Assembly: GCA_011390885.1 (NCBI GenBank)
Contig: JAABRO010000025.1
Coordinates: 1 to 41,945 of the forward strand
DNA length: 41,945 nucleotides
Reading direction: 5' to 3'
From: Gemmatimonas sp.
Lineage (GTDB): Bacteria > Gemmatimonadota > Gemmatimonadetes > Gemmatimonadales > Gemmatimonadaceae
The translations under genes and the position numbers were made by a program. The notes under the pieces were generated by a model that was not told the DNA's origin, made no database searches, and was given only the letters and a program-made list of their open reading frames with translations. This document shows, in pieces, positions 9,078 to 11,280 of the stretch (the stretch's first letter is position 1; every line of letters starts with the position of its first letter).

Positions 9078-10133
9078 CTACGCCGCGGCTCGGCTCTCCC
9101 GCCCCACCAGCGGCATCACCTGCGCCGCGAACCGCTCCATCTCCTCGAGCTGTGGACTGCACTGGAGCAGCAGCAGGTCCACACCCACACGCGACAGCGC
9201 CTCCACCCGCTCGGCCACCTGCTCCGGCGTGCCCACGAGTCCCGTGCGCAGCCCGCGGTTGGACACCGAGTAGTCCTGCACCGTGAGCTGCTGCTCGAGC
9301 TTCGTGTTCGCCAGCCAGTCCTGGAAGTTGCCGTACCCTGGCGAGCCGGGCGTCACGGTCGTGATGCGCGCGAGCTCCTGCTGCACCTCGCGCTCGGTGT
9401 CGCGCACGATGGTGTAGGCCGCCACGCCATACTGCATGGGCGGCAGTCCCGCGCGTTCGCGGCGGGCGCGCAGGTCGGCGATCTTGGGCGCGAGGCGCTC
9501 CGGCGGATCGCCGTGCATCACGTACGCATCGCACTTCGTGCTGATGAGCGACTTGGCCGCCTCCGACTCACCGCCCGCGTACAGCACGGGGCGCGGACGC
9601 GTGAAGCTGCGCACCGGCGGCGGCTGCACCACGAGATCGTCCACCTGGTAGTACTGCCCGTGGAACGTCACACTCGGCTCGGCCCACGCGCGCGAGACGA
9701 TCTCCAGCCACTCGGCGGTGCGCGCGTAGCGGTCGTCGTGCTCGTCGAAGGTGCTACCGTAGCGGCGCGCTTCGTCCTTCCACCAGCTCGACACCACGTT
9801 CAGCGACAGGCGGCCGTTGCTGATGCGGTCGATGTTCGCCGCCTGCTTCGCCAGCCGCGCCGGATGATGAAACGTCGGACGCACCGCCACCATCAGCTCG
9901 AGCGAGTGCGTGACGGCCGCGAGCGCCGCCGCCGTGCTCCACGCGTCGAGCGCCGGCGCGTCCACGCCCTTGATGTCATTCAGGAACAGTTCGGCGATGA
10001 GCGTGAGGTCGTACCCCAGCTCTTCGCTGCGACGCGCCAGGCGCTGCACGTAGGCCCACGAGGGCTCCATGCCCTCGTCCTCCACGTTGCGCAGCCAGCC
10101 GCCGAACACCGGAAGCCAGTAGCCGTAGCGCAT
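9078..10133 (-). CDS. FMN-dependent LLM-class monooxygenase, SfnG (dimethylsulfone monooxygenase)-like
   Basis: A luciferase-like flavin monooxygenase of 351 residues. The opening MRYGYWLPVFGGWLRNVEDE closely resembles SfnG, which uses FMNH2 and O2 to convert dimethyl sulfone to methanesulfinate. Further family segments are ELFLNDIKG, DAWSTAAALAAVT, AANIDRISNGRLSLNVVSSW, and the flavin-binding stretch around RPVLYAGGESEAAKSL. It would need a separate flavin reductase, which is not visible here. The ATG was chosen at the SfnG-like N-terminus; 20 more upstream codons are open but overlap the ATP-grasp gene. The upstream gene's TGA shares one base with this ATG (TGATG), indicating coupling. The partner gene is not a known sulfone gene, so the true substrate may differ from dimethyl sulfone. 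The oxygenase class is secure. Confidence 0.85.
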   Translation of the reverse strand: MRYGYWLPVFGGWLRNVEDEGMEPSWAYVQRLARRSEELGYDLTLIAELFLNDIKGVDAPALDAWSTAAALAAVTHSLELMVAVRPTFHHPARLAKQAANIDRISNGRLSLNVVSSWWKDEARRYGSTFDEHDDRYARTAEWLEIVSRAWAEPSVTFHGQYYQVDDLVVQPPPVRSFTRPRPVLYAGGESEAAKSLISTKCDAYVMHGDPPERLAPKIADLRARRERAGLPPMQYGVAAYTIVRDTEREVQQELARITTVTPGSPGYGNFQDWLANTKLEQQLTVQDYSVSNRGLRTGLVGTPEQVAERVEALSRVGVDLLLLQCSPQLEEMERFAAQVMPLVGRESRAAA

Positions 10134-11104
10134 CAGCGCACGCCCGCCAGCACACCGGCGCGCTGCTCGAGGTAGTCCACGAGGTTGGTCCACGGATCGA
10201 AGCCCACCACGTTGGGCGCGTCGGCCACGAAGTTCGACAGCGCGTTCACGTCGTAGAAGTAGTGCTGCCCGTCGCGGTCATCCACGAGCAGCTCGATGCC
10301 GCCCACGTCGATCTGTGCGGCCTGCGCGATCGCCTCCACCTGCGCGATGATCTCGTCGCTCGGACGCGTGCCCTCCACGCGCATGCCCGTCTTCGGCGCG
10401 TCGATGGCGCACGCGCCGCGCACGAGCTCCACGCCATTCGTGGTCTGGCACGCGTCGGCCGGGCACAGGTCGAACGAACCCACGGCCGGATACACGTTGA
10501 TCGCGTACAGGTACTTCCCGCCGAGCGTCTCCACGCGCGTGATGCGGCCGTCGCGCAGCGGCGCCGACTCCTGCACGAGCGCCGTGCCGTCCACGCCCAG
10601 TTCCACCTCGCCGCGCGCCACCGCACCACGCAGCGCCTCGGGCGAGTCGTAGCGCACGATGCCGGCGCCGCTGCCGCCGATGTTGGCCTTCACGAGCACC
10701 GGATAGCGCAGCCCCTCCGCCGCCTCGGGCGCGAGTACGGGATTGTTGATCACGCGACTCGTCGGGAAGGGCAGACCGAGCCGAGAGAGCAGGCCGAGCT
10801 GCGTGGCCTTGGAGAGTTCGAGCGCGTAGGCGGCACTGCCGTTCACCACCGGCGTGCCCAGGCGCTCGACATGGTGCAGCCAGTGCAGCGTGGAGAAGAT
10901 GCTGTGGCCGTGGCCGCGCAGGTACGCGCTGGGGCTCGCCCGGTTGAACACGAGCGAGTACGGCAGCTCGGGCTCGGACGGATCGAAGGCGTGCGCGGCC
11001 GCATCGAGCCGTTCGTACGGCAGACCGCGGCGCTCGAGCTCGGCGAACAGCGGGCGGAACCAGTCGGGGTGCTCATGGAGCACGGCGATCGGACGCAGGG
11101 ACAT
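10133..11104 (-). CDS. RimK-like ATP-grasp ligase
   Basis: A 323-residue protein with an ATP-grasp fold. The ATP-binding beta-hairpin is YPVLVKANIGGSGAGIV (catalytic-type Lys plus Gly-rich loop), the strand carrying the second acidic site is VGGIELLVDD, and the metal-binding segment is FYDVNALSNF. Family members couple ATP hydrolysis to acyl-phosphate formation and ligation with an amine or other nucleophile, as in RimK. Substrate residues cannot be read here. The N-terminal ~90 residues form the pre-ATP-grasp part. A cysteine-containing stretch, SFDLCPADACQTTNG, sits in the central region. The ATG is preceded by GAGG with about 6 nt spacing. It is first in a two-gene unit with the SfnG-like monooxygenase and has its own promoter and a structured leader. 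Confidence 0.8.
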   Translation of the reverse strand: MSLRPIAVLHEHPDWFRPLFAELERRGLPYERLDAAAHAFDPSEPELPYSLVFNRASPSAYLRGHGHSIFSTLHWLHHVERLGTPVVNGSAAYALELSKATQLGLLSRLGLPFPTSRVINNPVLAPEAAEGLRYPVLVKANIGGSGAGIVRYDSPEALRGAVARGEVELGVDGTALVQESAPLRDGRITRVETLGGKYLYAINVYPAVGSFDLCPADACQTTNGVELVRGACAIDAPKTGMRVEGTRPSDEIIAQVEAIAQAAQIDVGGIELLVDDRDGQHYFYDVNALSNFVADAPNVVGFDPWTNLVDYLEQRAGVLAGVR

Positions 11105-11135: not shown

Positions 11136-11177
11136 CTACACGAAAAAGCCCGGGGGACTTGGGGGCCGCCCGGGCAT
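11136..11177 (-). other. Possible 13-codon leader ORF (MPGRPPSPPGFFV)
   Basis: In the ATP-grasp leader an ATG opens a 13-codon frame with five Pro codons that spans the terminator-like hairpin and stops at TAG before the ligase ribosome-binding site. No clear ribosome-binding site precedes it. A ribosome translating it would melt the hairpin, as in classical attenuation. It may equally be chance, because GC-rich hairpins encode Pro and Gly codons by composition. Confidence 0.2.
11143..11175 (-). terminator. Leader terminator/attenuator candidate upstream of the ATP-grasp gene
   Basis: Read on the minus strand, a 7-bp stem GCCCGGG/CCCGGGC (11175-11169 with 11154-11148, loop 14 nt) is followed at once by TTTTT (11147-11143). 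It lies downstream of the promoter at 11251-11280 and about 40 nt before the ATP-grasp start. It is therefore placed as an attenuator rather than as the end of another gene. Two GCCGCC copies earlier in the leader (11219-11214 and 11209-11204) are complementary to GGCGGC in the loop and 5' arm (11170-11165) and could form a competing structure. Confidence 0.55.
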
Positions 11178-11250: not shown

Positions 11251-11280
11251 ATCTTACCACTGGGATACCGGCGGTGTCAA
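11251..11280 (-). promoter_or_regulatory. Sigma70-type promoter for the ATP-grasp/monooxygenase unit
   Basis: On the minus strand a perfect -35 TTGACA (11280-11275) and a good -10 TAAGAT (11256-11251) are separated by 18 nt. This is the best consensus promoter seen in the window. Transcription would start near 11243-11246 and give a leader of about 140 nt before the ATP-grasp start. Confidence 0.7.

Follow-up and report, generated by a model that had tools for sequence, protein, structure and literature searches.

The window analysed here is a 41,945-nucleotide contig (JAABRO010000025.1) of the 4.07 Mb Gemmatimonas sp. genome GCA_011390885.1, and it carries on its minus strand a gene pair made up of an ATP-grasp ligase with the RimK/LysX/ArgX fold (10133..11104, ATG start, 323 amino acids) and a luciferase-like monooxygenase (LLM; 9078..10133, ATG start, 351 amino acids). 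The latter is of the two-component type that depends on reduced flavin mononucleotide (FMNH2), and it forms its own subfamily within the SfnG/SsuD superfamily. The ligase stop TGA (10135-10133) and the LLM start ATG (10133-10131) have one base in common, and the resulting TGATG (10131..10135, minus strand) suggests translational coupling; both the location of the pair and this overlap, described in an earlier note made from the sequence, were borne out. The overlap exceeds chance, because one of either one base (32/66) or four bases (15/66) is kept in 47 of the 66 relatives in which both ends could be read. Reading along the minus strand, the leader consists of a promoter, an aptamer of the S-adenosylmethionine (SAM)-binding SAM-II riboswitch, a hairpin with a U run, and then the ligase. 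The promoter that the earlier note had called dedicated is plausible as a match to the sigma-70-like consensus (TTGACA-18-TAAGAT with a TG before the -10, that is, an extended -10; 11251..11280, minus strand), with 10 of 12 consensus positions matched and one site found against a mean of 0.1 in 50 shuffles of the region.

The earlier note had proposed a search for this pair in other genomes, and the pair recurs in many phyla. Among 298 Gemmatimonadota genomes, in which ligases were counted at E < 1e-90 and LLMs at E up to 1e-45, the ligase occurred in 90 and the LLM in 84; in every one of the latter (84/84) the ligase was adjacent, on the same strand and within a gap of at most 370 bp (Fisher p 1e-67 for co-occurrence, without kinship correction). 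Chance neighbourhood was rejected on the basis of this adjacency. We then considered the 80 top-scoring loci out of at least 575 found by scanning a genome-contig collection with an LLM alignment headed by a Deinococcus deserti protein; these derive from Gemmatimonadota, Acidobacteriota, Pseudomonadota (mainly Sphingomonas), Planctomycetota, Verrucomicrobiota, Bacteroidota, Actinomycetota, and Eisenbacteria. A ligase of the window type lay upstream of the LLM on the same strand and within 2.2 kb in 75 of these 80 loci (tblastn), a different ATP-grasp ligase was nearby in three, as it was in two Deinococcus plasmids (a ninth phylum), and no ligase was found in two (L049 and L051, the latter on a contig that begins 225 bp before the LLM). 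Since these two sets (80 loci and 298 genomes) partly overlap, their counts are not independent. The nearest named relatives of the window LLM are Gemmatimonadota. Within the family of Sphingomonas TDK1, the LLM was present in 15 of 149 genomes with the ligase directly upstream in all 14 loci fetched (14/14), and in the family of Hymenobacter properus the ligase was present in 44 of 150 genomes and was followed by the LLM in 37/37 loci fetched. The ligase, whose absence from relatives the earlier note had envisaged, is present in them, and by sequence the two genes form an obligate, usually overlapping and widespread two-gene module. In 25 of the sample genomes (e.g., G035, G128, and G058) there is only a remote ligase, of about 30% identity, and no LLM of the same subfamily. 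In Deinococcus and some Actinomycetota, a second and weakly related ATP-grasp ligase of about 426 amino acids, here termed ligase-2, stands beside an LLM of the same subfamily (6596-7876 in L035 and 6701-7981 in L036; 1.7-3.3 kb upstream of the LLM in L047, L048, and L056).

The aptamer in the ligase leader (SAM-II, also SAM_alpha, RF00521; 11168..11239, minus strand) was the sole match up to an E-value of 1 when 4 kb were scanned against 4227 Rfam families (32.0 bits, E 1.4e-4). It aligns over the full length of the model (1-79) with its P1 pairs formed, and its core nucleotides are identical across 16 aligned leaders. The view in the earlier note that the locus bears no sign of sulfur was wrong at the RNA level, this element at 11239-11168 having been overlooked. 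The host genome has two SAM-II sites, one in the ligase leader (E 3.4e-5 in the genome scan) and one before metY, which encodes an O-acetylhomoserine sulfhydrylase (TIGR01326, 635 bits). Directly 3' of the aptamer, the hairpin GCCCGGG...CCCGGGC followed by a U run (11143..11175, minus strand) is a candidate expression platform that may act like a terminator; its arms are kept with some changes in the 16 aligned leaders, the U run is imperfect in most, the predicted fold has a z of -2.8, and a shorter terminator-like match was found once against a mean of 0.4 in shuffles.

With Rfam's own model, a SAM-II element at or above the gathering score was found upstream of the ligase and on its strand in 6 of 20 sources; a seventh SAM_alpha match, in L026, lies on the opposite strand before panB and was left out of this count. 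The loci that reach the gathering score before the ligase are L010, L019, L021, L023, L028, L030, L153, and L114. An in-house model recovered SAM-II in 23 of the 30 closest loci and in 1 of 60 distant ones, and because 7 of its 8 training elements were ligase leaders that were recounted among these loci, 17 of the 24 matches are independent of training. It also placed elements in L097 and L114 among 83 more loci. At L026, the SAM_alpha element (1091-1016, minus strand, 60.6 bits) precedes the pantothenate synthesis gene panB. The ligase there is divergent, and on its strand the in-house model places a separate SAM-II element. Sub-gathering microRNA matches in distant leaders, a long non-coding RNA match in D. 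deserti, and tRNA and tmRNA matches were set aside as chance or unrelated.

SAM-I and SAM-II riboswitches turn off methionine-supply genes when SAM is plentiful. The met genes are among the targets of the proteobacterial SAM_alpha regulons treated in the main text of PMC4239095, in which the words "monooxygenase", "luciferase", "RimK", and "ligase" are absent. We also searched for SAM-I (RF00162) at its gathering score of 44.4 on the ligase strand and within 1.5 kb upstream. In Hymenobacteraceae, SAM-I preceded 43 of 45 ligase copies in 44 genomes, at a distance of 349-563 bp and with scores of 64.0-82.5 bits, against a chance expectation of about 0.03; the two copies without it are in G465 and G600. 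One genome of this family (G529) has two copies of the operon (L216 and L217), each with its own SAM-I. SAM-I also lies upstream of ligase-2 and the LLM in Deinococcus peraridilitoris (L036, 60.6 bits), and at a Flammeovirgaceae locus it stands before a metY-like neighbour. Given that two unrelated SAM riboswitch classes occur in different phyla and with two ATP-grasp partners, both regulation of the pair by SAM and a role in sulfur and methionine supply appear very likely.

Neighbouring genes also bear on this role. In Sphingomonas TDK1 (L062), cysE, the ligase, the LLM, metN, metI, and metQ follow each other in close succession, with cysE overlapping the ligase (cysE and metN were named by family models, metI and metQ from sequence and order). 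Homologues of MetN, MetI, and MetQ, which make up the methionine importer MetNIQ, flank the pair in L112 and stand beside it in 4 of 14 Sphingomonadaceae loci (L195, L199, L207, and L208). A gene for an SsuE-like FMN reductase precedes the ligase in 5 of the 80 collection loci (135 bits, below the cut-off of 164), metH (1979 bits) is divergent from the pair in L057, where a weak SAM-II-like match of 21.2 bits lies on the metH strand, and the D. deserti row reads, by annotation, D-cysteine desulfhydrase, racemase, ligase-2, and LLM. Of 37 Hymenobacteraceae loci, 12 have a gene for an amino acid permease after the pair. Clustering of open reading frames (ORFs) of at least 90 amino acids at 82 loci revealed no conserved third gene; besides the ligase, no neighbour cluster occurred in more than 11 of the 82, the most frequent being of ATP-binding cassette (ABC) transporter type by sequence.

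The AlphaFold2 prediction of the ligase (predicted local distance difference test, pLDDT, 90.9) matches ArgX best among PDB entries (3vpb, Z 28.1, 2.4 Å over 277 residues), followed by LysX (3vpd, Z 27.7), with RimK (7qyr) at Z 25.9; the nine best matches, with Z of 28.1-25.2 over 268-277 residues, are all ArgX, LysX, or RimK, so that the likeness extends over the whole chain and includes the ATP-grasp residues. Identity to these structures is 16-23%, however, and the best curated model, TIGR00768 for RimK family alpha-L-glutamate ligases, gives 52.3 bits against a cut-off of 143.4. The name "RimK-like" used in the earlier note therefore holds for the fold and the nearest curated model, not for family membership. 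The residues K139, R190, E192, E271, D285, and N287 and a motif, LCPxxxC, are invariant in 43/43 ligase homologues; by comparison of sequences, LCPxxxC is specific to this ligase family and sets the window ligase apart from LysX, ArgX, and RimK, as does the lack of a LysW-type gene at the loci examined.

The LLM matches the Bac_luciferase family (PF00296) at residues 2-319 with 211.4 bits, above the gathering score of 27.9. Its best curated model is that of SfnG (TIGR04021) at 239.2 bits, far below the equivalog cut-off of 382.95; three other pair LLMs score 232.7-244.9 bits on this model and the control, Burkholderia glumae SfnG, scores 635.5. In a tree of 35 rows, 26 pair LLMs lie together on one side of a branch with support of 100/99 that separates them from SfnG, whose two rows form their own branch; seven ungrouped rows were not counted and may lie inside the pair side. 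"SfnG-like", as the enzyme had been called, is thus apt only in the sense of the nearest curated model, and the tight grouping with true SfnG that the earlier note had considered was not found. Membership of SsuD/MsuD was ruled out as well: the score against TIGR03565 is 179.8 bits with a cut-off of 518.2, and Arg225, which binds the sulfonate of MsuD and whose replacement (R225A) yields no sulfite (PMC8234197), is missing. In the alignment, with MsuD numbering matched through an R-L-H motif, R225 is Ala and H227 is Tyr in the window LLM. The two-component monooxygenases SfnG and SsuD/MsuD are related to the LLM as members of one superfamily, and the SsuE-like reductase at five loci recalls SsuD-type systems; the pair differs from them in its scores, in these two residues, and in having a ligase as partner. 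Among structures, the best matches are 3rao (E 4e-121), 8vw6 (9e-108), and SfnG 8t0u (7e-50); the monooxygenases 3rao and 8vw6 are the nearest solved relatives, with 57% and 47% identity to the D. deserti LLM, and we take 3rao to be from Bacillus cereus. We caution against annotating the LLM as SfnG or alkanesulfonate monooxygenase, or the ligase as RimK.

One explanation for these results is that the pair is probably an undescribed route by which sulfur is scavenged for methionine. Low SAM would open the riboswitch and allow expression of the operon; the ligase would condense the amino group of an organosulfur substrate with an amino acid or a comparable carboxylate, giving a cap analogous to the acetylation in the yxe pathway of Bacillus subtilis and in the cmo pathway; the LLM, supplied with FMNH2 by a separate reductase, would cleave the C-S bond oxidatively; general peptidases would take off the cap; and the released thiol would enter methionine synthesis beside metY or metH. 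C-S cleavage by the LLM is favoured because its nearest curated models are C-S cleaving enzymes. We put the probability of the reading as a whole, an operon expressed at low SAM that amidates an organosulfur amino acid, cleaves its C-S bond and feeds cysteine or homocysteine, at roughly 0.55, and consider the chance of the chemical part, amide capping followed by C-S cleavage, to be about even. Of the suggestions in the earlier note, the opening of a conjugated organosulfur compound is strongly supported by the SAM-II and SAM-I riboswitches and by the sulfur-gene neighbours; the conjugate itself and the reaction order, like the substrate, chemistry, and product, we infer. A broader proposal, which we hold somewhat more tentatively, is of an undescribed form of sulfur salvage spread over nine or more bacterial phyla. 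In it, an ATP-grasp enzyme would attach a peptide-bonded cap in place of an acetyl group, a flavin-dependent step would then cleave the C-S bond, and two unrelated classes of SAM riboswitch as well as two different ATP-grasp families would have been recruited independently.

The overall logic proposed here, in which the amine is blocked, the compound oxidised, the C-S bond cleaved, and the amine unblocked, is copied by analogy from yxe and cmo (PMC9706529 and PMC10863075). The yxe (scm) system of B. subtilis for S-(2-succino)cysteine comprises the acetyltransferase YxeL, the FMN monooxygenase YxeK, the deacetylase YxeP, and an ABC importer (PMC9706529). The pair resembles it in combining an amine-modifying enzyme with an FMN monooxygenase (YxeK being likened by description), in the amino acid importer present at some pair loci, and in cysteine as the presumed product; it differs in having an ATP-grasp ligase in place of the acetyltransferase, no deacetylase, and a SAM riboswitch. 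The CmoO/CmoJ salvage of S-alkylcysteine shares the sequence of cap, flavin oxidation, C-S cleavage, and uncapping, as well as its occurrence in soil bacteria and a separate flavin reductase, whereas the cmo pathway (PMC10863075) has an acetyl cap, two flavoenzymes, and no ligase. An N-acetyltransferase and deacetylase of the yxe/cmo type were not recurrent next to the LLM in the 82 loci.

This interpretation must be made cautiously, and several observations weigh against it. The window aptamer scores 32.0 bits, less than the Rfam gathering score of 36, and SAM-II was found in only 1 of 40 more distant Gemmatimonadota leaders (L153). No SAM riboswitch reached the gathering score in 11/11 Sphingomonadaceae loci, 15 further sources gave one only in L114, which is from Gemmatimonadota, and none appeared up to an E-value of 1 in the D. 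deserti stretch. Most loci of Acidobacteriota, Planctomycetota, Verrucomicrobiota, and Actinomycetota have, by sequence search, neither a SAM riboswitch nor a conserved third gene, and in the first three of these phyla most loci offer no independent clue to sulfur. No uncapping peptidase or deacylase is conserved at the pair loci, and the reactions of LLM enzymes also include hydroxylation, N-oxidation, and the cleavage of amides. Finally, six Gemmatimonadota genomes have the ligase only: in three it lies at a contig edge, and in three it has no adjacent LLM (G269, G234, and G159, at L233, L234, and L235, respectively), with no replacement oxygenase recognised at these ligase loci. The SAM-II leader is still present in G269 (L022).

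One may postulate alternative scenarios. The one that survives best, which we nonetheless consider unlikely, is that the pair builds a small amide product such as an antimetabolite, a signalling dipeptide, or a sulfur-containing peptide; the ligase would then form the amide and the LLM would add a hydroxyl group, much as with BtrJ and BtrO. In butirosin synthesis, BtrJ is an ATP-grasp ligase that works with BtrO, an LLM hydroxylase; the enzyme types are alike, but butirosin is made on an acyl carrier protein by the genes of an antibiotic cluster. Joint action of ATP-grasp ligases and LLMs is known from pathways of this kind, the legend to a figure in PMC11354265 names BtrO, and the Hymenobacteraceae permease can also be read as an exporter. 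The pair is usually a lone two-gene unit, however, unlike a biosynthetic cluster; no exporter, self-resistance, or tailoring gene was conserved among ORFs of at least 90 amino acids at the 82 loci, MetNIQ is an importer, and induction of a product pathway by SAM shortage in three phyla would be hard to explain.

Marginally less probable is that the LLM acts on a C-N or other sulfur-free site of the conjugate and that control by SAM reflects a carbon or methyl-group link only. RutA and other LLMs perform chemistry of this type, such as amide opening and N-oxidation. The RutA model does match the window LLM, at 82 bits, and panB, which in L026 neighbours the pair and is preceded by a divergent SAM-II, is not a sulfur gene; the SfnG (239 bits) and alkanesulfonate (181 bits) models nevertheless score far above RutA, and the neighbours MetNIQ, cysE, metH, metY, and the SsuE-like reductase point to sulfur. 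We find it very improbable that the ligase tags a protein or peptide in the way of RimK for oxidation by the LLM. Such a role would suit the fold, as the substrates are the carrier protein LysW in the case of LysX and ArgX and a ribosomal protein in that of RimK, but no LysW-type C-terminus (EDWGE or near variants) occurs in any frame of the 82 loci and the window, and no conserved small partner gene was noted in clustering that took ORFs of at least 90 amino acids. That the LLM is a true SfnG converting dimethyl sulfone to methanesulfinate beside an accidental ligase can practically be dismissed despite SfnG being the best-scoring curated model, given the score and tree position reported above, the constant presence of the ligase (84/84), and the fact that dimethyl sulfone offers a ligase no group to act on.

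Few genomic clues to the pathway of an unknown gene are as good as control by a riboswitch, and here two unrelated SAM sensors in different phyla point at the same two uncharacterised enzymes. Judged by titles and the beginnings of abstracts, no paper on the ligase-LLM pair was recognised, and no paper was found that combines a SAM or SAM-II riboswitch with ATP-grasp enzymes. The enzyme families are already known; the proposed pathway is not. If sulfur salvage by the pair is correct, it would provide a new supply route for methionine and cysteine in many uncultured soil and freshwater bacteria, and it implies a substrate new for the ligase and a reaction new for the LLM, both of them directly testable.

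Related genes were also seen in other arrangements on plasmids. On a Spirosoma plasmid (L034, 7989-13221), the ligase is accompanied by two permeases for amino acids and by an LLM that is SsuD-like and belongs to another subfamily; no SAM riboswitch reaches the gathering score there. On a Pediococcus plasmid (L037, 2733-4918), a ligase homologue of 34% identity comes right after a dicarboxylate/amino acid symporter, and the plasmid record has no LLM match. A Variovorax plasmid (L255, 526-5011) has three consecutive LLM genes and, after them, a gene for a SAM-dependent methyltransferase.

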